A stretch of DNA of 64,000 nucleotides from Phycisphaerales bacterium (GTDB taxonomy: Bacteria; Planctomycetota; Phycisphaerae; Phycisphaerales; UBA1924): positions 1 through 64,000 of the forward strand of contig JAJDCZ010000031.1 in NCBI GenBank assembly GCA_029260555.1, written 5' to 3'. The stretch's first letter is position 1. Each line of letters opens with the position of its first letter. The notes beneath the pieces were generated by a model, which searched no databases, was not told the origin of the DNA, and saw nothing but the letters and a program-made list of their open reading frames with translations. The position numbers and the translations under genes are program-made. Positions 33,588 through 45,296 of the stretch are shown piece after piece.

Positions 33588-34613
33588 TCAATCTCCCCCA
33601 GTCAAACCCTCTCCCAACGCCTGCTCCTCGTCCTCACTCTCCGCCTTGAGTTCAATAAATATTTCGCTGTTGCACTCCGCACTCTCGCCATGCTCTGATG
33701 AGTCCGTCTCGTTGTCCTCTGCTGCTCGTTGATACACGCGGACCTTGCCCTGACGGGTCAGTTCCAGCATTGCAAGAAACAGGCCGATCATCTGGCTGCG
33801 CGTTTTCCCGGCAAACACATCAAACAAAGGCATCCCCGCCCCACCTCCGCTTTCTCCATCGGCACCCAATTGTCGCGAGTCGTTTTTCAGGCGGTCCAGC
33901 AAATCTGCTGCGTGAAGCTCGATGGGCGTGTCGTCTTGCGCCACGGTGTGTTCACCGAGCCGATCAAAGTTAACCGATGCCACGATCTTCTCAAACGCAG
34001 ACACCAGATCCAGAATGTCCAGGTCCTCAAGCTCGATCTCAGGCAGCGAATCCATTGCCTGCCGCACCGCACTGCTGGCAACCCCCGCCCCATCACAAGG
34101 CACCCGCTGATGCCAACGCTCACGCTGATCTTCCAGCGCATCCGCAGCATCACGATACTTCTTGTATGCCAACAGTTGACGCACCAGCTCTGTCCGCTGA
34201 TCCTCAGCTGATGGCCCCCCCGCCCCCGCTGCATCTGTATCTGAGCTGGCAAATGCAGAATCCTCCGGCGGCATCAACATTCGTGACTTAATCTCCATCA
34301 GCGTCGCAGCCATCACCAGAAAATCACCCGCCAGATCAATATCAAGCCGATCATGATCACCCGCTTGAGTGATGAAAGACACATATTGATCAGCAATGGT
34401 TGCTATGGGAATCTCGGTAATATCCACCTCAGCCCGGCGTATCAGATAAAGCAGCAGATCCAAAGGCCCCTCAAACTGATCCAGCCTCACCAGATAATCA
34501 CTCCCAGAAGCCACACCCGAACTGGCCTGAGCTTGAGAGGGGGACGGGAGGGGGGGGGCTTGGGAGGGGGGTTGGGGAGGGGGGGAAGATTTGGTGGTCG
34601 TTGGTTCTGGCAC
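33588..34613 (-). CDS. scpA: Segregation and condensation protein A
   Basis: ScpA is the kleisin that bridges the SMC dimer in chromosome condensation. The 341-residue product has the conserved N-terminal helix YLVRLDQFEGPLDLLLYLIR (about residues 40-59) and ITEIPIATIADQY (about 65-77), and the C-terminal winged-helix region FDVFAGKTRSQMIGLFLAML (about 273-292). The start is a GTG at 34613 with GGAG 7 bases upstream. Residues 1-35 are a Pro/Ser-rich tail (SSPPPQPPSQAPPLPSPS) encoded by a C-run cluster, and an acidic linker lies at about 125-165, so it is longer than usual. It is head-to-head with kdsD. scpB is not in the window. Confidence 0.92.
   Translation of the reverse strand: MPEPTTTKSSPPPQPPSQAPPLPSPSQAQASSGVASGSDYLVRLDQFEGPLDLLLYLIRRAEVDITEIPIATIADQYVSFITQAGDHDRLDIDLAGDFLVMAATLMEIKSRMLMPPEDSAFASSDTDAAGAGGPSAEDQRTELVRQLLAYKKYRDAADALEDQRERWHQRVPCDGAGVASSAVRQAMDSLPEIELEDLDILDLVSAFEKIVASVNFDRLGEHTVAQDDTPIELHAADLLDRLKNDSRQLGADGESGGGAGMPLFDVFAGKTRSQMIGLFLAMLELTRQGKVRVYQRAAEDNETDSSEHGESAECNSEIFIELKAESEDEEQALGEGLTGGD
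34535..34586. repeat. G-run cluster in scpA, potential G-quadruplex
   Basis: On the plus strand this stretch has G5, G3, G9, G3, G6, G4 and G7 runs separated by one to three bases. It meets the simple four-run rule for G-quadruplex formation several times over. It encodes the Pro-rich N-terminus of ScpA on the minus strand. Confidence 0.75.
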
Positions 34614-34682
34614 GCATGATCTCCAGATCGTATCGCATCGGGCGTATCCCAATGGATACTCAGAGTGTACCCTATAGAACCA

Positions 34683-35780
34683 ATGAATCAGCCCCCCAAC
34701 CCCCCCAACCCCCAACCCCCCACCCCAACCACTCCGCACAAGCTCAAGGAGCCCAAAGCGGCCGGAGCACCAGAGCAATCCCGCGCTGACGAGCTTGCCT
34801 ATGCACGCCAGATGTTGATTCTGGAGGCTGCGGATATCTCTGCACTTGCTCAGATGCTGGGCGATTCATTCCTGCAGGCTGTGGACCTGCTACAAGGCTG
34901 CACCGACTCCGGCGGCACAGTCCTGATCTCAGGCCTGGGCAAATCAGGTCTCATCGGTGCCAAAATCAGCGCTACCATGGCCTCCGTAGGAATCCCGTCG
35001 CACGCGGTGCATCCCTCTGAAGCTGCACATGGCGATCTGGGCCGATTCCGCCCCTGCGATACCGTGATCTGCCTCTCTAACTCCGGCGAGACCGAGGAAA
35101 TCATCAATCTGGCAGCCATCCTCAGACAGGACAAGCTGCCCATCATCAGCATCACCGCTCTGGCAACCGAGCCGCCTTCCAGCCTGGACCGACTGGCAAC
35201 GATCCCTCTCCACACAGGCGTGAAACACGAAGCCGGTGCTCCTTTTGCAGCTCCAACCAGCTCCACCACCACATCCCTGGCTCTGGGCGATGCACTCGCA
35301 TTAACCACCGCACTTCGCATGGGCTTTTCCGACCACGACTTCGCCAAACGCCACCCCGGCGGTGCGCTGGGCACCATGCTCCGACCCATCATCGATGTCA
35401 TGCGGTTTTCAATCCCTTCCAATCTCGCGCCCATTCCTGATACCTGCTCAGTTGCAGATGCACTAACTCAGGCATCAAAAACGACACGCAGACCAGGCGC
35501 CATCCTCCTGATCGATGCTGATGGCAAGCTCTCGGGGATCTTCACCGATGGCGATCTCCGCAGGCTGGTGCTTCACAACCCTGATCGCCTCAACGAACCC
35601 ATCAGCAAGGTCATGACGCCCAGCCCGCGCACGCTTAGTGCGGATGCCCGCGTTGCTGATGCCTTGCGCATGATTCGTGAGCATCGCCAGGATGAGATTC
35701 CCATCGTGGATGCTCATGGCAAACCCGTTGGTCTTCTCGATGTGCAGGATCTCATTGCAATGCGACTGGTCAAGGATTGA
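34683..35780 (+). CDS. kdsD: Arabinose-5-phosphate isomerase (KdsD/KpsF type)
   Basis: The enzyme converts ribulose 5-phosphate to arabinose 5-phosphate, the first step of Kdo synthesis. The 365-residue protein has a SIS domain (ISGLGKSGLIGAKISATMAS, about residues 83-102; LSNSGETEEI, about 138-147; HPGGALG, about 225-231), then two CBS domains (about 255-365, with FTDGDLRR and VGLLDVQDL). The N-terminus has an extra Pro-rich tail (PPNPPNPQPPTPTTP) absent from usual family members. The ATG at 34683 has no good ribosome site; a GTG at 34665 is the alternative. kdsC follows after 3 bases. Confidence 0.93.
   Translation: MNQPPNPPNPQPPTPTTPHKLKEPKAAGAPEQSRADELAYARQMLILEAADISALAQMLGDSFLQAVDLLQGCTDSGGTVLISGLGKSGLIGAKISATMASVGIPSHAVHPSEAAHGDLGRFRPCDTVICLSNSGETEEIINLAAILRQDKLPIISITALATEPPSSLDRLATIPLHTGVKHEAGAPFAAPTSSTTTSLALGDALALTTALRMGFSDHDFAKRHPGGALGTMLRPIIDVMRFSIPSNLAPIPDTCSVADALTQASKTTRRPGAILLIDADGKLSGIFTDGDLRRLVLHNPDRLNEPISKVMTPSPRTLSADARVADALRMIREHRQDEIPIVDAHGKPVGLLDVQDLIAMRLVKD
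34692..34730. repeat. C-run cluster at the start of kdsD
   Basis: C6, C7, C5, C6 and C4 runs separated by AA or A encode the proline-rich tail of KdsD. Together with the G-run cluster at 34535-34586, it flanks the divergent promoter symmetrically: each gene has the C-rich strand as its coding strand just after its start. Confidence 0.75.
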
Positions 35781-35783
35781 CTC

Positions 35784-36314
35784 ATGCCAGATGACTCAAA
35801 CCCAAATACCCTTGCATCAGGTATCAGGCTCTTGTGCCTTGATGTCGATGGCGTACTCACCGATGGCTCGATCAACATCGACAACCAGGGCAATGAATCC
35901 AAACGCTTTTATGTCCGTGATGGCTTTGGCATTCGACTCTGGAAAAGCATGGATCGCCATATCGCAATCATCACAGGCAGATCAAGCAAAGCTCTAACCC
36001 ACCGAGCCAACGAGATTGGCATCGAGTGCCTCGTGCAAGGCTCAAAGGACAAAGTCAATGATCTCCAACGCATCACCGCCGAGCTGGGCGTCACGCTGGA
36101 GCAAACTGCATTTGTAGGCGACGACTGGCCCGATCTGGCTGCGATGAAGCTGGTGGGATATCCCATTGCGGTCTTTGATGCTGAGCCTGACATCTGCGAT
36201 GTTGCAAGGTACATTACCGATCGACCCGGGGGCCATGGCGCGGTCCGGGATGCTGTGGAGCATCTTCTGGATGCCCAGGACCTCTTGAGCATTGCCCGAA
36301 AGCGATACGATTGA
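35784..36314 (+). CDS. kdsC: 3-deoxy-manno-octulosonate-8-phosphatase
   Basis: The 176-residue HAD-superfamily phosphatase removes phosphate from Kdo-8-phosphate. It has HAD motif I CLDVDGVLTDGSI (about residues 15-27), motif II AIITGRSS (about 61-68), a conserved Lys region GSKDKVNDL, and motif III FVGDDWPDLAAM (about 110-121), which is the compact tetrameric KdsC layout. It lies between kdsD and the LptC-like gene with gaps of 3 and 2 bases, the same order (kdsD-kdsC-lptC) as in E. coli. Confidence 0.95.
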   Translation: MPDDSNPNTLASGIRLLCLDVDGVLTDGSINIDNQGNESKRFYVRDGFGIRLWKSMDRHIAIITGRSSKALTHRANEIGIECLVQGSKDKVNDLQRITAELGVTLEQTAFVGDDWPDLAAMKLVGYPIAVFDAEPDICDVARYITDRPGGHGAVRDAVEHLLDAQDLLSIARKRYD

Positions 36315-36316
36315 CC

Positions 36317-39300
36317 ATGAAACCCGCCAGCTCAAAGACTGCTGCAGCCAGACGAATGACGGGCCGATGGATCGCACTCGCTACGGTGTTCATCTTTGCA
36401 GGCATAGTAACTCTCGCAATAACCTTCCGCCCAACCCGTTCCGGTTCAGGCACCGATGATCTTGATGCACTCATTGATGCTCCGGATCTGAATCCTGATT
36501 CCATCACGGATCTGGGAACGGGTGCGGGGCGAGGCATGACCATCAACATCGCGGATCGGCGTGATCCATCTCGACTCGCAGGCATGTTGATGTGCGAGAA
36601 GATGGACCCGCTGGCTTCCAAGCAATATGCGTTGACCGAGCCTCGGGCGTGGATCTATCTCAAGGATGGTCGCAGCATCCACATTCGTGCTGACCGCGCC
36701 ATGTTTTCCATGCCAGAACAGAACCAGTCGCCCGACGAGGGTGAGTTCATTGGCAATGTCGTGTTGCGCATGTTCGATGCATCGCTTGCAGGCACGAGCT
36801 TTGATCCCCAGCAAACACCTGCGATATTACAAGCCAGCACGCCTCGCCTTTCATTCGTCAACGATCGCGGCGAGATGTGGACCAACGATACGCTGATCGT
36901 CTCGACACCTGACTATGAGTTCACAGGCTCAGATGTCCGAATCATCTTCAACCAGCTCCGCGAAAGACTCCAGTTGCTCGAAGTCCGCAAGGGCGGCACC
37001 ATTCGCTACGCATCAACAAAATCTAAGAGCAATCCACTGCTGACACAGGACAATGCCATTAGCGAGCAAGGCACTGCAAGTTCAGCCCTCGTTGCTACAG
37101 ATGACGCGCCAAGACTCATTCCCCGTATCGACCAACCTGCACCACAACGCAGTGCCCAGGCAGAAGTACACATATCAGGTTCGATGACCCTTGCTGGTCA
37201 AACGCTCTACCACGCCATATTCGGTGACCATGTCACCGCTGAACAGCTAGATAGAGTTGTAACAGCTGATCAGCTTGATGTGTGGGCGCGTGTCGTGGAT
37301 AACAAGCTTCCTGACGATGCCATCTCGCCGATCCGTACTGCACTGCTCAATCATGCCAGCACACAAGCTCAGACTCAACAACTTGCCTGGAAACCTGCCC
37401 CTCAAATGAGCCCGCTGGCCATGCACATGGCAGGATTGGCAATAGGCGCAACTCAGGATGATTCTTCAACTGAAGCTGATCCCGCCACGAACGAGTTGTT
37501 GTCATTAACACCCTTTTCTGAGGACGATGGGGTCTTGAGCTGGAATCGCACGCTGGTGATTCGTCCTGTTCTGGGCGAGCAAACACCCGCCGAGTTGCGC
37601 GAAGACCATCTGGCCTTTGCATTTACTTCCCCTCGTTCGCGTGTAGTGCAGTTTGAAGATCCTGCATCTAGTATGTCAGGCTTCAGTGCTGCCATCACCT
37701 ACGCAGCCACGCGAAGCTTCGGCGTCTTGAAGGGCGATGACGAGACAGATGTTTTGATCCATGCAGGCTCTGGCATGTCTGCTCATGCTGGTCAGATAGA
37801 GATGATGCTGAGCACCGGCGTAGGCCACATCCCCACCGCTGGCGAGTTGATCGCCAACTCACAAAGTGCTGACAAGCCAGATAAAACACGATCGATCCGC
37901 TGGAATGAACAGGCCGACTTCATGTTGTATCTGCACGATGGAGCATTGACTCAACAGCTCAAGATGGCATCGTTCTCAGGGGACACACTGGCAACCGATG
38001 GCAAAGCTTCAATCACAAGCGAGTTCCTGCTCAGCGAGTTTGATCAGGGCCAATCGCCCGTCCTCACCAAAATGCTCGCTGATGGCAGCGTCATCGCCAA
38101 ACGCGAAGACAAATCGCTCGCCAGCGACCATCTGGAAGTCTTCTTCAAACCCAGGTCCCTCACAAATCCTGATGCTGCATCAAGCACGATGGTCGATGCG
38201 CAAACACAAAACCAGTCCTCAGATGCAAACCTGAAATCCTCTGGCAAGGTTGATCCATATCTCGTCGTTGCCCAAGGCAATGTGCGCGCTGCTCAAGAGC
38301 ACGCCTCGATCACCACACACGACCTCCGCGCCGATCTGATCCTCAATGACAAGAACAGAGTCGTCGTTTCTCATGTCATTGCAAAGGCTCCAGCCCCATC
38401 AAACAACACCAATCCTCATGACTCCACCCCAGGTGTGATCTTTAATCGAGACGATGGTGTATATGCCCAGACTGATTATCTTGAAGCGGACACCATCAAG
38501 CAGATCGCCACACTCCTGGGCACCGGCTCGTCCGTCGCCAAAGGCCCCACCCGCGTCACCGGCGAACAGATCTATCTCAACGGCAAAGATCAGGCCATCG
38601 AAGTCTTCGGCCAGGGCCAATTCTCCCACCGCTCAACCAGCAACTCCGATCGAGTCACCGATGCCACCGCCAACTGGTCCCGGCGCATGACCTACTCCGA
38701 TGCAACCGGCCTTGCTGAGTGTCTTGGCGATGTAGTCGTCACCTCAGAGCCTGACGATCTAACCGAAGACCGCATCAGTGCTGACCGCGTCATCTTTGAA
38801 ATAGCCCAAATCAAAGATGATCAGACAACACACCAAATGCTCGATGATGAACCCCTCAACCAACGCAAACTGGTGCGTGCCCATGCTTTTGGATCGATAC
38901 TCCAGACCTCCGATGGCCGACCCGTTGATGTCACCTCAATTCGGTATGTACACGATGAGACTCAACCCACAGGTCGCAGGCAGGAACGGCTGATGACACT
39001 GCGCGGAGCACGCGTATTTGCTGAAAACACCCAAGGCACACTGGAAGTTCCCGATGCAGGCGTGCTCGTACTTTACGATGCCACTCCTGAAGATGCTGAC
39101 GAAAATCCTGCAGGTGAAGAGTCCAGCGAGCTCTCCCAAGCCAGTACCCGAGGCCAAACCCTCTTTCGCTGGGACGGCTCAATGCTGATGGAACGCAGGA
39201 TCGGTCAAATGCGCATGCTGAACAATGTAAGGATGATTCATCAGCCTCTGGGCGACCAGGACTCCACCCAGCTTGAGTGCGAAATGCTCACCGCAACCAT

Positions 39301-39595
39301 GCCTCAGGACAGTCAGGACAACTACGCACTGGATGCTCCCATCAACAGCCAGATCCATCGTGTCACTGCTGAAGGTGCTGCATGGATGAGAAACGGCCCC
39401 CGTGAAATCGTGGCTGACCAACTCACCTATGACGCTCTGACCAAAAAAGTCGAAGCACTCGCAGAGGCTGGCGAACGCGTCACCTTCTTTGATGCCCAGC
39501 GTGGCGCCACAACCACCGGCAAGAAACTGATCTGGGATCTGATGCGAGATCGCGTCCAGCTCCTGGGCTCAGAAGCAACCGCCATGCCGCGATAA
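36317..39595 (+). CDS. Giant LptC/OstA-like lipopolysaccharide transport protein
   Basis: The 1092-residue protein has one N-terminal membrane helix (RWIALATVFIFAGIVTLAITF, about residues 17-37) and a very long periplasmic part. Its first 250 residues resemble LptC (LTEPRAWIYLKDGRSIHIRA, about 103-122, then EFIGNVVLRMFD). Later stretches look like repeated OstA/LptA beta strands: VAQGNVRAAQEHASITTHDL, VTGEQIYLNGKDQAIEVFG, CLGDVVVTSEPDDLTEDRIS, and the final REIVADQLTYDALTKKVEAL. It follows kdsD and kdsC with a 2-base gap, where lptC and lptA stand in E. coli. It may form the whole inner-membrane-to-periplasm bridge in one chain (inference). The outer-membrane LptD and the ABC subunits are not in the window. 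Confidence 0.8.
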   Translation: MKPASSKTAAARRMTGRWIALATVFIFAGIVTLAITFRPTRSGSGTDDLDALIDAPDLNPDSITDLGTGAGRGMTINIADRRDPSRLAGMLMCEKMDPLASKQYALTEPRAWIYLKDGRSIHIRADRAMFSMPEQNQSPDEGEFIGNVVLRMFDASLAGTSFDPQQTPAILQASTPRLSFVNDRGEMWTNDTLIVSTPDYEFTGSDVRIIFNQLRERLQLLEVRKGGTIRYASTKSKSNPLLTQDNAISEQGTASSALVATDDAPRLIPRIDQPAPQRSAQAEVHISGSMTLAGQTLYHAIFGDHVTAEQLDRVVTADQLDVWARVVDNKLPDDAISPIRTALLNHASTQAQTQQLAWKPAPQMSPLAMHMAGLAIGATQDDSSTEADPATNELLSLTPFSEDDGVLSWNRTLVIRPVLGEQTPAELREDHLAFAFTSPRSRVVQFEDPASSMSGFSAAITYAATRSFGVLKGDDETDVLIHAGSGMSAHAGQIEMMLSTGVGHIPTAGELIANSQSADKPDKTRSIRWNEQADFMLYLHDGALTQQLKMASFSGDTLATDGKASITSEFLLSEFDQGQSPVLTKMLADGSVIAKREDKSLASDHLEVFFKPRSLTNPDAASSTMVDAQTQNQSSDANLKSSGKVDPYLVVAQGNVRAAQEHASITTHDLRADLILNDKNRVVVSHVIAKAPAPSNNTNPHDSTPGVIFNRDDGVYAQTDYLEADTIKQIATLLGTGSSVAKGPTRVTGEQIYLNGKDQAIEVFGQGQFSHRSTSNSDRVTDATANWSRRMTYSDATGLAECLGDVVVTSEPDDLTEDRISADRVIFEIAQIKDDQTTHQMLDDEPLNQRKLVRAHAFGSILQTSDGRPVDVTSIRYVHDETQPTGRRQERLMTLRGARVFAENTQGTLEVPDAGVLVLYDATPEDADENPAGEESSELSQASTRGQTLFRWDGSMLMERRIGQMRMLNNVRMIHQPLGDQDSTQLECEMLTATMPQDSQDNYALDAPINSQIHRVTAEGAAWMRNGPREIVADQLTYDALTKKVEALAEAGERVTFFDAQRGATTTGKKLIWDLMRDRVQLLGSEATAMPR

Positions 39596-40276: not shown

Positions 40277-40618
40277 CTATATCTCGTCAGTGCTCCGCTC
40301 ACCGGAGCTGATACGCACAGCCTGCTCAACGCTGCTCACAAAGATAGCGCCATCACCCGCAAGACCCGTATGCGCAGACTGCTGAATCGCCTGGATCACA
40401 CTCTCAGCAATCGCATCTGAACAAATAATCTCCACCTTCATGTGTGGCTTAAAATCGCAGACCTGCTCAGCATGACTATGAGATGTTGCCAGCTGTTTCC
40501 CATGCCCCCAGCCCTGGACTTCACAAACGCTCATGCCTGTTACGCCACTGAGGCGGTGCATCGCCAATGTGACTTCATCGAGACGGTGTGGCTGTATAAA
40601 TGCTTCGACTTTTTTCAT
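40277..40618 (-). CDS. PII-family signalling protein linked to metal efflux
   Basis: The 113-residue protein has the PII fold: MKKVEAFIQPHRLDEVTLAM at the start, DGAIFVSSVEQAVRI (about 89-103) and SSGERSTDEI at the end. The T-loop (about residues 37-55) lacks the uridylylated Tyr51 and instead has His39, His47, His49 and Cys54, with His59 nearby. It overlaps the RND pump gene by 4 bases, so it is made with the pump. PII relatives encoded with heavy-metal RND pumps are a known variant group outside nitrogen control. A metal-sensing or pump-gating role is inference. Confidence 0.88.
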   Translation of the reverse strand: MKKVEAFIQPHRLDEVTLAMHRLSGVTGMSVCEVQGWGHGKQLATSHSHAEQVCDFKPHMKVEIICSDAIAESVIQAIQQSAHTGLAGDGAIFVSSVEQAVRISSGERSTDEI

Positions 40619-43600
40619 GATTCGCCTTTCTTTGAAGATGGTTCAGATGCAGGTTTGAGCGCAGGTTTAGGCATCGGCTTTGGAACCGGCGCATCACGCT
40701 CCACATAGATCGCAAACCACTTGTAAAGTGCCGGGATCACGAGGAGTGTGAGAATCGTAGAACTGACCAATCCGCCGACGACCACTGTAGCCAGAGGCCT
40801 TTGCACTTCGCTGCCCGTGCCACGAGCAAACAAAAGCGGGATAAGCCCCAGTGCCGTGGTCGCAGCAGTCATCAGCACCGGCCGAACACGCAAGCACGCA
40901 CCCCGTACTGATGCCTCGCTCACACTGATCCCTGAACGCACAAGCTGGTTCATATAAGTCACAAGCACCATGCCATTCTCAAGCGCGATACCAAACAGGG
41001 CAATAAATCCGACCGAGGCTGGCACGGAAAGATTCTGCCCACTGATCCACAACGCAACCACGCCGCCTACCAGAGCCAGCGGGATATTGAGCAGAATCAG
41101 AAGTGTGTTCTTGAGTGATGCAAAGCTTGCGTAAAGGAGAATAAAGATGAGCAAGAGTGTGATCGGGATAACGACCTTAAGCCGAGCGTTGGCTTGCTGC
41201 TGAAGTCTGAACTGACCACCCCATGTGACGAGATACCCAGGCGGCAAAGCCGCCTCGTCCTCGATCGCCTGCTGCGCCTCAGCAACGAATGAACCAATAT
41301 CACGATCGGTCACATTACACTGAATCGTAATGAACCGCTGACTCTTCTCACGTGTGATCTGGCGAGGTCCGACAACAGTCGTGATCGTCGCAAGATCAGC
41401 CAGTGGGGTGCGCTGACCCTGAGGGCCGGAAATGAGAAGATCCGCAATCTGCTCAGGTGTCGATCGAGCACGCAAAGGATAACGAATAAGAATCTCAAAA
41501 CGCCGAATACCCTCAAAAATCTCGCCTGCACCATGCCCCCCAATGGCAGCTTCAAGAGTCTCTTGCACATCTCGAACATTCACACCATACCGAGCGATAG
41601 CCTCGCGGTTCACGCGAACAACCAACTGCGGCGCCCCACTGACCTGATCCACCTGCACATCCGTCGCACCACGAACTTCACGCACCACCGCTGCGACCTT
41701 CTCTGCCTCGGCTTTGAGTGTCTCAAGGTCATCGCCGAAGAGTTTGATCGCAAGCTCAGCCCGGACCCCCTCAAGCAGCTCGTCAATCGACATCTCGATC
41801 GGCTGCGTAAAGTTAACAAGGATTCCCGGCGGCTCTCCAATCGCCTGCCGGAGTTGCTCTTCGACCCAGGCCTGGTTGCGTGGCTTTCGCCACTCAGTCG
41901 GATGCTTGAGCAGTACATACATCTCAGCACTGTTCACCGGGTCCGCGTGAGCTCCCACTTCCCCTCTACCGACACGGCTGGTGACACCGATAACCTCTGG
42001 CACCGTGAGCAGCCGGCGCTCAACGCGCGAGGCGTTCTCTCTGGACTCCTCAATCGAGATGGACGGTGCCATCGTCATGCGCACCACGATCGTGCCTTCG
42101 TTAAGCTTGGGAGTAAACTCCGACCCAAGTTGTGGAAAAACAATCGCACCAATCAGCAGCATAACCGCCGATAGCACAACCGCTGTCCAGCGGAAACGCA
42201 CAAATAGACTGACCAGCGGTTTGTAAGGCCTCAAGAGCAGACGCACCATGAGCGGCTCCCCCCCAGCCTTAGCCTTCTTCTTGCGACGCATGAACAGGTC
42301 TGCCAGCACCGGCGCCACCGTCAATGCAAATACCAATGAACCCGCCATGGCCATCGAAACCGTCGATGCAAGAGGGCGAAATGTCTTGCCCTCAACACCC
42401 TGCAGCGTAAAAAGCGGGAGAAATACAATCACAATAATCGCTATCGCAAATGCAACAGGACGACCAACCTCGCGACAAGCCTGCGCAATCAGACGATGCC
42501 GAGGCACCGTCCCGTCTGACTCGTTGAGAAGCCGATCAGTGTTCTCAACCATGACAATCGTCCCGTCAACAATCATGCCAATGGCAATCGCCAACCCCCC
42601 AAGCGACATCAGGTTTGCCGAGAGCCCAAGCTGACCCATGCCAAGCGTCGCGACAAGGACAGAGAAAGGCACCGCGATCGCCACAATAAGACTTGGCCGA
42701 ATCCCGCCCATGAAGACCAGCAGCACAAGGACCACAAGAGCAATACCTTGAAGGAGTGCTGACCGAACAGTGCTCACTGCTGCATCAACAAGGTCTTTCT
42801 GCTGATAATAAGGCACAATATGAATACCGTCGGGCAGCATGCCGTTGATCTCTTCAACGCGATCCTCCACTGCTTCGATAACGGTCGACGAGTTTGTTCC
42901 AAAGAGTTTGATCACCATGCCTGCCACGACCTCGCCCTCACCATTGCGAGTCTGGAGGCCGCGTCGAATAGCGCCGCCGATCTTGATCTCTGCAAGACTG
43001 CGCAGATAGATCGGGCGTGAGTCTTCCGTCTTGATGACGATCGATTCAAGATCCTGGATCGAAGTCGCAAGCCCAACGCCGCGCACCACAAACTCCTCGT
43101 CATTCTGCTCTATGTACTGCGCGCCGACATTCAGATTGTTGGCATCCACGCGCTCGATCACCTCAGCGAGCGTCAGGTCATACCGCAAGAGTGCCTCGGG
43201 ATCAATGATGATTTGATACTGTTTCTCAAAGCCACCGATCCCGAGAACCTCAGTGACACCAGGCACCGTCTGCAAGTTGAACTTGACTATCCAGTCCTGG
43301 ATCGTGCGAAGCTCTTCAAGCGAATAAGTGCCGGTCGTGTCTTCCAGATAGTAAAAGAGAATAAGCCCCATGCCCGTTGCGATCGGCCCCATCTCAGGCT
43401 CCCCGAATCCATCGGGAATCTGATCGCGAGCCTCTTGAAGCCGCTCGCCTACAAGTTGGCGACAGAAATAAATATCCATCCCCTCCTCGAAATAGACATT
43501 CACCACCGACAGGCCAAAGTTCGATACCGAACGGATATTCTCAATACCCGGCAATCCATTCATCGAGACTTCGATCGGGAATGTCACAAACTTCTCAACC

Positions 43601-43779
43601 TCTTCTGGCGCAAGACCCTCGGTGATTGTAAAAACTTGCACAAGATTGGGTGAAACATCGGGAAAAGCGTCAACAGGAAGACGCACATACGAAAACCATC
43701 CTGCAACCATCACGAGCACACCCAGCACAAGTACAAGAAGCCGGTTGCGCATACTGAAATCGATAATGTGGTCGATCAT
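40615..43779 (-). CDS. Heavy-metal RND efflux pump, CusA/CzcA family
   Basis: The 1054-residue inner-membrane protein has 12 predicted helices and two large periplasmic loops. It starts MIDHIIDFSMRNRLLVLVLG. The TM4 proton-relay region reads LAIAIGMIVDGTIVMVEN, with Asp405 and Glu412. The first Asp of the divalent-metal CzcA signature is Ala here, as in CusA. The CusA methionine at the PGM position is replaced by Ile (APSISIEES), so copper/silver specificity is not supported directly. It is coupled to the PII gene downstream and lies 26 bases after the adaptor gene. Confidence 0.95.
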   Translation of the reverse strand: MIDHIIDFSMRNRLLVLVLGVLVMVAGWFSYVRLPVDAFPDVSPNLVQVFTITEGLAPEEVEKFVTFPIEVSMNGLPGIENIRSVSNFGLSVVNVYFEEGMDIYFCRQLVGERLQEARDQIPDGFGEPEMGPIATGMGLILFYYLEDTTGTYSLEELRTIQDWIVKFNLQTVPGVTEVLGIGGFEKQYQIIIDPEALLRYDLTLAEVIERVDANNLNVGAQYIEQNDEEFVVRGVGLATSIQDLESIVIKTEDSRPIYLRSLAEIKIGGAIRRGLQTRNGEGEVVAGMVIKLFGTNSSTVIEAVEDRVEEINGMLPDGIHIVPYYQQKDLVDAAVSTVRSALLQGIALVVLVLLVFMGGIRPSLIVAIAVPFSVLVATLGMGQLGLSANLMSLGGLAIAIGMIVDGTIVMVENTDRLLNESDGTVPRHRLIAQACREVGRPVAFAIAIIVIVFLPLFTLQGVEGKTFRPLASTVSMAMAGSLVFALTVAPVLADLFMRRKKKAKAGGEPLMVRLLLRPYKPLVSLFVRFRWTAVVLSAVMLLIGAIVFPQLGSEFTPKLNEGTIVVRMTMAPSISIEESRENASRVERRLLTVPEVIGVTSRVGRGEVGAHADPVNSAEMYVLLKHPTEWRKPRNQAWVEEQLRQAIGEPPGILVNFTQPIEMSIDELLEGVRAELAIKLFGDDLETLKAEAEKVAAVVREVRGATDVQVDQVSGAPQLVVRVNREAIARYGVNVRDVQETLEAAIGGHGAGEIFEGIRRFEILIRYPLRARSTPEQIADLLISGPQGQRTPLADLATITTVVGPRQITREKSQRFITIQCNVTDRDIGSFVAEAQQAIEDEAALPPGYLVTWGGQFRLQQQANARLKVVIPITLLLIFILLYASFASLKNTLLILLNIPLALVGGVVALWISGQNLSVPASVGFIALFGIALENGMVLVTYMNQLVRSGISVSEASVRGACLRVRPVLMTAATTALGLIPLLFARGTGSEVQRPLATVVVGGLVSSTILTLLVIPALYKWFAIYVERDAPVPKPMPKPALKPASEPSSKKGES

Positions 43780-43805
43780 TAAAAACCATCTCCATTCTGT
43801 AGCGT

Positions 43806-45296
43806 TCAGTGAGCGTGCCCACCACCCTCAAACGAGGCCTTGTTCAACTCTGCCTTGAGCGCAAAAGCACCATCAGAGACATAGGTATCGCCTGGTTTCA
43901 GACCCTTGACGATCTCGACATGCGTGTCATTGCCTCGCCCGAGTTCTACATGGTGAGGCTCAAACCCATGCTCTGTACGAACAAAGATGATCTGCTTATC
44001 ATTGATGGACTGAATCGCGGTCTTAGGCACGACAACTCCTGGCTCAAACGCACCTGTCACAACACGACCCGTCACAAACAAGCCAGGCCGCCATGTACCA
44101 TCTGGATTCTCAAGGACAATTCTCGCCGTCGTAGTCCGTGTGCTTTCACTGATCACCGGGCTTACATATTGAATCGTGCCTCGTGCCTGACCGATGCCAT
44201 GGTGAGCAACAATCTCAGCCGATTGCCCAGAGCGCAGAACAGGCAGGTCTTTCTGATACACGGTGAGTTGAACCCAGACCGTGCTGAGATCAGCAATGGT
44301 GTAAATATCATCGCCTTGATCTCGTTGTTCTCCACGGACGATGTGCCGTTCTGTAATAACACCATCCAGCGGTGCTGTGATCACATAACGAGCCAGTTCG
44401 TCGTCAGTCTGCTGCGCAACTGATGCGATAGCTGCTTCAGATAACCCCAGTGCATGTAATTTCCGTTCAGCAGCCAGAAGCGCAACCTCCGCGACCTTGT
44501 TTTCACGCCGCCTCTGGTCCAGTGTTCTTGCATTCGTAAACCCAAGATCATCACGAACCGAAAGAAACGCAGCCTGAGCTTGTTTGGATGCGCTCTCCGC
44601 TTCGAGGTACTCTGCCTCACTGCCGATCTGTTTCTCAAAGAGCGATTGCTCACGCATGTAGATCGCTTCAGATGCAACCAGTTGCGCATATGAAGACACG
44701 AGAATACGACGGTTCTCTCCCAGATCCAGGTCAGAAAACTCTCGAAGTGCATCAAGCGACGGATTATCACTCAGAAACTCCAGCAGTTTCCGTGTGTTCT
44801 TATACACAGTCTCAGCGCGAACCAGATCAATCTTGGCCAGCTCATGCTCACGATCCCGCGAAAGGTACTCCGCCTTTGCTTCTGCCAGCGCCGGGCTCTC
44901 AAGTACAGCGAGCGGCTCCCCGGCCGAAACGGTATCGCCGATCGTCTTGAATACCTCAAGCACAATGCCCGATGCCCTTGCCACGACATGCGCAACACCA
45001 TCGGGATTCATGACAACCTCGCCTGGGAGATTCACCGTAATCTCAACAGGCTGAGACCCTGCTGTATCGATTTTGATACCAAACTCTTTCAACTCCGTCG
45101 ACGAGAGTTCAACGATCTGCTCCTCGTCCTCATGCTCCTCCCCATCATGCCGATCTTCGCCAGCATCGCCATCATGAGATTTTGCTTTGGTATCATTGTG
45201 ATTATCGTGTTCGTCAGCCGGGGGAGCCTTTCCACACGCACTAAGCAGGTACATCGCAACAACTGAGACGACCAGAGTTCTTAAAATAGATGTCAT
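43806..45296 (-). CDS. RND efflux periplasmic adaptor (CzcB/CusB type), lipoprotein
   Basis: The 496-residue adaptor has a lipoprotein signal (LLSAC, Cys21) and then a His/Asp/Glu-rich segment (residues about 27-60, with DEHDNHND and DRHDGEEHEDEEQ) likely to bind metal. The membrane-fusion body follows: the lipoyl half-motif GEVVMNPDGVAHVVARASG (about 90-108), an alpha hairpin (about 130-270), and beta-barrel domains (DGVITERHIVRGEQRDQGD, about 310-328). The C-terminus ends EGGGHAH, a second His cluster. It links the pump to the TolC-like channel and overlaps that gene by 4 bases. Confidence 0.93.
   Translation of the reverse strand: MTSILRTLVVSVVAMYLLSACGKAPPADEHDNHNDTKAKSHDGDAGEDRHDGEEHEDEEQIVELSSTELKEFGIKIDTAGSQPVEITVNLPGEVVMNPDGVAHVVARASGIVLEVFKTIGDTVSAGEPLAVLESPALAEAKAEYLSRDREHELAKIDLVRAETVYKNTRKLLEFLSDNPSLDALREFSDLDLGENRRILVSSYAQLVASEAIYMREQSLFEKQIGSEAEYLEAESASKQAQAAFLSVRDDLGFTNARTLDQRRRENKVAEVALLAAERKLHALGLSEAAIASVAQQTDDELARYVITAPLDGVITERHIVRGEQRDQGDDIYTIADLSTVWVQLTVYQKDLPVLRSGQSAEIVAHHGIGQARGTIQYVSPVISESTRTTTARIVLENPDGTWRPGLFVTGRVVTGAFEPGVVVPKTAIQSINDKQIIFVRTEHGFEPHHVELGRGNDTHVEIVKGLKPGDTYVSDGAFALKAELNKASFEGGGHAH

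Follow-up and report, generated by a model that had tools for sequence, protein, structure and literature searches.

We analysed a 64,000-nucleotide stretch of DNA from the genome assembly of a Phycisphaerales bacterium (GCA_029260555.1, contig JAJDCZ010000031.1, positions 1 to 64,000; hereafter the window). An open reading frame (ORF) on its forward strand (36317-39595, 1092 codons, ATG start) encodes a protein of 1092 amino acids, for which we propose, at a probability of about 0.85, a role as the periplasmic bridge of the lipopolysaccharide (LPS) transport (Lpt) system, built as one covalent LptC-(LptA)n chain. An alternative TTG start at 36311, identified by mechanical ORF calling, would give a product of 1094 amino acids. 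The ORF is a real, conserved gene, for which 117 of 120 genomes from the bacterium's family, including all 91 of good quality, encode a homologue. The source assembly comprises 3.18 Mb in 58 contigs and is 93% complete.

Predicted structure of the putative bridge protein

AlphaFold2 models were obtained for the full chain and for residues 64-620 alone. The full-chain model (mean predicted local distance difference test score, pLDDT, 76.9; predicted template modelling score, pTM, 0.62) was beta-rich along the entire periplasmic part and showed a helix at residues 12-36, followed by about 60 strands (61 predicted) up to the C-terminus. Foldseek searches with this model returned LptD, LptC and LptA chains at the top. 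The original prediction, which was made from the DNA alone, had described one membrane helix at the start of the protein, an LptC-like domain and many OstA-like beta segments, and had named structure prediction as a check. Both models agreed with this description: the N-terminal domain was LptC-like, the middle and C-terminal parts were LptA-like (Table 1), and Kyte-Doolittle analysis of the whole chain predicted no further membrane helix beyond the N-terminal one.

For the model of residues 64-620 (pTM 0.75), LptC chains occupied the top five positions in Foldseek, and LptC also ranked first in VIA-align. LptA matched the same N-terminal domain with a Z of 11, below LptC. Because LptC and LptA share one fold, the structural match to LptC is not exclusive. 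The assignment of the N-terminal domain as LptC-like therefore rests on this ranking together with the membrane helix, the position of the domain and the profile matches of relatives. LptA is recognized by a 16-strand twisted, open beta-jellyroll; the predicted fold matched LptA-type structures with Z values of 9.3 to 15.7, scores that concern the fold and not the openness of the groove. Close to the C-terminal unit, stretches of the full-chain model also matched the N-terminal domain of LptD (Z about 13). Matches to OspA, ApoB100 and LPD-3 (Z about 7-8; LPD-3 Z 7.3) lay at a level that is common for the aligner and were set aside. Besides the two linkers listed in Table 1, the full-chain model contained low-confidence linkers at residues 619-641 and several shorter ones.

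Sequence profiles and internal repeats

Profile searches, which had also been proposed as a check, recovered LptA-type families in the bridge protein and LptC weakly, with better scores in relatives. Over the whole protein, Pfam LptD_N scored 28.6 bits and thus passed its cut-off of 20.4, with no single stretch passing alone. The NCBIfam LptA model TIGR03002, at 27.8 bits, did not reach its equivalog cut-off of 71.7 bits. Homologues were sampled as 25 near-complete sequences from family genomes plus the protein studied here (n = 26). LptD_N matched 21 of these and the LptA model 16, while LptC was matched by 5 (Pfam) or 12 (NCBIfam). Across 61 family genomes (this one and 60 relatives), the Pfam LptC cut-off was exceeded in five, always inside the frame of the bridge orthologue, and these matches of relatives, as well as the NCBIfam LptC matches, mapped to the N-terminal domain.

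A search of PDB sequences with the single bridge sequence yielded no match; the family profile retrieved solved LptA structures at E 8e-4. Comparison of segment profiles with each other (hhalign) indicated that the middle and C-terminal units are related, for example residues 404-530 with 944-1090 (probability 95), and the LptA-like middle stretch matched the C-terminal unit with a probability of 91. Hydrophobic alternation along the strands was 1.53, against 1.18 in shuffled sequences (s.d. 0.15), a modest excess that was not used as support.

Conservation and genomic context

The 26 sampled homologues were 1006-1136 amino acids long and each carried one strong N-terminal hydrophobic helix; two had an additional, weaker hydrophobic stretch in the middle of the protein. 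Named carriers of the gene belong to the Planctomycetota and include one metagenome-assembled genome of the Phycisphaeraceae.

The gene order in the window is scpA, on the opposite strand, followed by kdsD, kdsC and the bridge gene, with gaps of 3 bp between kdsD and kdsC and 2 bp between kdsC and the bridge gene. Profile scores above the cut-offs confirmed both kds genes, downstream of which the original prediction had located the position of lptC-lptA. The true start of kdsD may lie further inside 34665..35780. Of 29 loci from the family, 22 had kdsC and/or kdsD immediately upstream of the bridge gene, and two others (L011, L015) had scpA there instead. Upstream of the bridge gene in L011, L015 and L018-L020, neither kdsC nor kdsD was detected. 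Elsewhere in the window, the reverse strand at 40615-45296 encodes an RND-type (resistance-nodulation-division) efflux pump of about 1054 amino acids, with a 496-amino-acid gene upstream that resembles a membrane-fusion protein, as judged by eye from the translations only.

Table 1. Features of the bridge gene and its neighbours in the window (aa, amino acid residues; rmsd, root-mean-square deviation).
Feature	Position	Strand	Basis
Putative single-chain LptC/LptA-like bridge protein, 1092 aa	36317..39595	+	ORF, profiles, family homologues, AlphaFold models
N-terminal membrane helix, aa 15-39	36359..36433	+	Kyte-Doolittle; helix 12-36 in model; positively charged residues precede
LptC-like beta-jellyroll domain, aa 66-236	36512..37024	+	6mit_C (LptC of LptB2FGC) Z 14.4, rmsd 3.8, 145 aligned; Foldseek E 1.0e-5
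Low-confidence linker, presumably flexible, aa 235-291	37019..37189	+	pLDDT <50
Second low-confidence linker, aa 340-397	37334..37507	+	pLDDT <50
LptA-like beta-jellyroll stretch, aa 404-612	37526..38152	+	aa 483-610 against LptA 7qs6: Z 9.3, rmsd 2.9, 107 aligned
Pfam LptD_N (LptA/OstA) match, aa 590-756	38084..38584	+	E 1.8e-6
TIGR03002 LptA match, aa 710-829	38444..38803	+	E 1.9e-6, 27.8 bits
C-terminal LptA/LptH-like beta-jellyroll, aa 941-1092	39137..39592	+	4uu4 (LptH) Z 15.7, rmsd 2.6, 125 aligned; 2r1a_H (LptA) Z 15.1
kdsC, KDO-8-phosphate phosphatase (KDO, 3-deoxy-D-manno-octulosonic acid)	35784..36314	+	TIGR01670 156 bits, above cut-off
kdsD, KpsF/GutQ-type arabinose-5-phosphate isomerase	34665..35780	+	TIGR00393 (kpsF) 232 bits, above cut-off
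scpA, divergent neighbour	33588..34778	-	SMC_ScpA E 4.2e-27; same place in many relatives

Other Lpt and LPS genes in the genome and family

As a further check, the original prediction had asked whether separate lptA and lptC genes are missing from the genome and lptB, lptF/lptG and lptD present. Most of this inventory was recovered. The source genome encodes LptF and LptG (contig C58; 564 and 372 amino acids), LptD (C35; 1111 amino acids) and LpxC (C43). It gave no LptC profile match that reached E 0.001, and no LptA or LptD_N matches outside the bridge gene. Profile searches of the 61 family genomes, several of which are in 1-8 contigs, likewise revealed no separate small lptA or lptC: all LptA matches over the cut-off and all credible LptC matches fell inside frames of ~970-1170 amino acids, except for one 663-amino-acid frame in a genome that is 69% complete, and the few short frames with LptA or LptC matches had E values of about 0.5 or worse or were fragments. 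As these profiles are weak in this lineage, this negative result is of moderate rather than absolute strength. The exception was lptB, for which no gene over the cut-off was found in the source assembly.

Of the 41 family genomes searched for LptB, 38 have a gene above the cut-off (about 300-330 bits), and the failure to find one here is probably due to the incompleteness of the assembly. Inspection of candidate LptB genes in the source genome indicated other ABC (ATP-binding cassette) ATPases, the best of them located beside an ABC-2-type permease and another being MlaF-like.

LptF is enlarged: about 250 residues interrupt the match to its permease profile, which suggests a lengthened periplasmic part. 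Together with a membrane protein resembling ArnT-type glycosyltransferases, a PAP2 phosphatase and LptG, it is encoded at C58:2564-7766 (locus L046) in what is apparently a lipid A/LPS export cluster. For LptD (C35, locus L047:4574-7906), the PF04453 match begins only at residue 620 and is preceded by a long N-terminal part with a proline-rich linker; the outer-membrane side of the system may thus be extended too. No convincing match was found between this N-terminal part and the segment profiles of the bridge protein.

Weighing of alternative explanations

Several observations weigh against a single-chain LptC-LptA bridge. With 240 residues at a pLDDT below 50 and the pTM of 0.62, the relative placement of the units in the full-chain model is uncertain. 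Pfam LptC (PF06835) scored 14.7 bits on residues 101-158 (E 0.024), short of its cut-off of 21, and because the bridge's own LptC match lies below this cut-off, a separate, diverged LptC or LptA could escape detection. The lack of a clear LptB gene in the source assembly belongs here as well. The low LptC score and the common fold, reflected in the LptA match to the N-terminal domain, would also suit an accessory or LptA-only segment, in which the N-terminal domain is merely an anchored LptA-like unit and LptB2FG works without LptC or with a separate LptC that escaped detection. This explanation appears unlikely, since LptC chains outranked LptA for this domain in both aligners, the LptC matches of 12 homologues (NCBIfam) and of several relatives (Pfam, over the cut-off) map to it, and homologues elsewhere in the phylum exceed LptC cut-offs.

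The possibility that separate lptA and lptC genes lie outside the 93%-complete assembly, or have diverged too far for the LptC and LptA profiles, which are weak in this group, would make the long protein redundant. With 61 family genomes free of a credible separate match, and the few short matching frames being insignificant or fragmentary, we regard it as highly improbable. Comparably little weight is given to a jellyroll bridge that carries a non-LPS lipid while LPS is handled by unseen proteins. The sequence does not reveal the cargo, long hydrophobic-groove proteins carry various lipids, and a weak match to LPD-3 was obtained; however, the operon with kdsD and kdsC, which serve KDO synthesis, is kept across families, Lpt folds scored far above all others, and LptF, LptG, LptD and LpxC are present in the genome.

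Proposed mechanism and estimated length of the bridge

For a single-chain LptC-LptA bridge, the N-terminal helix would anchor the protein in the inner membrane and the first jellyroll would take the role of LptC by docking on LptF/LptG. About five LptA-equivalents, arranged end to end with short or disordered linkers, would replace the LptA oligomer. LPS would be driven along the chain by LptB2FG, and the C-terminal LptA-like unit would deliver it to LptD at the N-terminal domain of the latter. We infer that the cargo would be LPS, that the chain would dock at both ends, that its groove would be continuous and that one molecule would span the periplasm. LPS is the proposed cargo because of the kds operon, LpxC, LptF/G/D and a report that lpxABCDKL are essential in a planctomycete (PMC10632474).

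The full-chain model contained 776 residues with a pLDDT of 70 or more which, at about 125 residues per unit, correspond to an estimated six or so units, including the LptC-like one. Strands in beta-sheets are spaced at 4.8 angstrom, and eight strands per sheet were used to calculate the span. If these ~776 residues stack as in LptA, at ~3.8 nm per unit, the chain would span an estimated distance of about 23 nm; a periplasm of 21 nm has been quoted (PMC5575297). The strand number is 16 for LptA and 15 for LptC (PMC4986956).

Putative bridge proteins in other families of the phylum

A survey of 246 genomes of the phylum with the LptD_N profile, with close examination of ten loci, identified bridge counterparts of 660-1115 residues in other families, and six loci in those families carried kdsD and/or kdsC upstream. 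The shortest (L087, 660 amino acids) matched LptC at E 1e-17 and LptD_N in three stretches (E 6.6e-23), passed both NCBIfam equivalog cut-offs and was preceded by kdsC and kdsD. A 793-amino-acid protein (L089), also downstream of kdsD-kdsC, combined LptC with three LptD_N stretches; in it and in the 660-amino-acid protein, the LptC domain and the three LptA domains are unequivocal. Two proteins of about 1115 amino acids (L092, L093) combined LptC with one to three LptD_N stretches. Three further proteins (L088, L090, L095; 1000-1085 amino acids) matched LptD_N and showed no LptC profile match; kdsD adjoins L088 and kdsD-kdsC adjoin L095. The original prediction had envisaged a distinct planctomycete architecture. 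A single chain was indeed found in several families, but at least one family keeps separate LptC-like (226 amino acids) and LptA-like (168 amino acids) genes (L096:5809-6992). The phylum thus contains both the fused and the split architecture, the single chain being widespread and variable in length. The gene that follows the 660-amino-acid bridge (L087:6847-8811) encodes a glycerophosphodiester phosphodiesterase domain and then many HEAT repeats.

These results suggest an LPS bridge of fixed, genetically encoded length in much of the phylum. A tentative extension, for which we consider the odds somewhat unfavourable, is that across much of the Planctomycetota one LptC would be covalently joined to LptA-like units in a number that is fixed for each lineage (about 3 to more than 5), the encoded length serving, without LptA oligomerization, as a ruler matched to the width of the periplasm. 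With a single-chain bridge, the gene itself would dictate how many units there are, so the continuous-bridge model would become testable via the length of one protein. Such a bridge would also provide a likely function for a conserved protein of large size in the planctomycetes, whose cell envelope has long been debated.

Comparison with known Lpt systems

In E. coli, a single LptC, a single LptD and a multimer of LptA, whose length is not known, have been described as making up the bridge, although the cell does not strictly require LptA to oligomerize (PMC5575297). Like LptC (PF06835, TIGR04409), the planctomycete protein begins with a membrane helix followed by a beta-jellyroll and is encoded downstream of kdsC; known LptC proteins are separate and about 190 residues long, whereas the bridge adds about 800 residues of LptA-like structure. 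It shares the LptA-type beta-jellyroll of LptA/LptH (PF03968, TIGR03002) in the middle of the chain and at the C-terminus, but LptA is small, soluble, secreted and oligomerizing, while the bridge would be a membrane-anchored fusion of several units. It resembles the N-terminal domain of LptD and, unlike LptD, which is encoded by a separate gene, lacks an outer-membrane barrel. Diderm Firmicutes also have LptA and LptC candidates beside LPS synthesis genes, although these are two separate OstA proteins of ~200 residues (PMC5007114). We found no earlier account of a naturally occurring LptC-LptA chain in the literature searched, which left out most subscription papers. According to one survey, planctomycetes have a 'largely reduced' Lpt system (PMC8871954); this may be explained if lptA and lptC, rather than being missing, are fused and diverged. 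A protein that would work like LptC plus an LptA oligomer, yet falls outside the definition of LptA as a small soluble protein and below the Pfam cut-off for LptC, is best read as a variant of the Lpt bridge.
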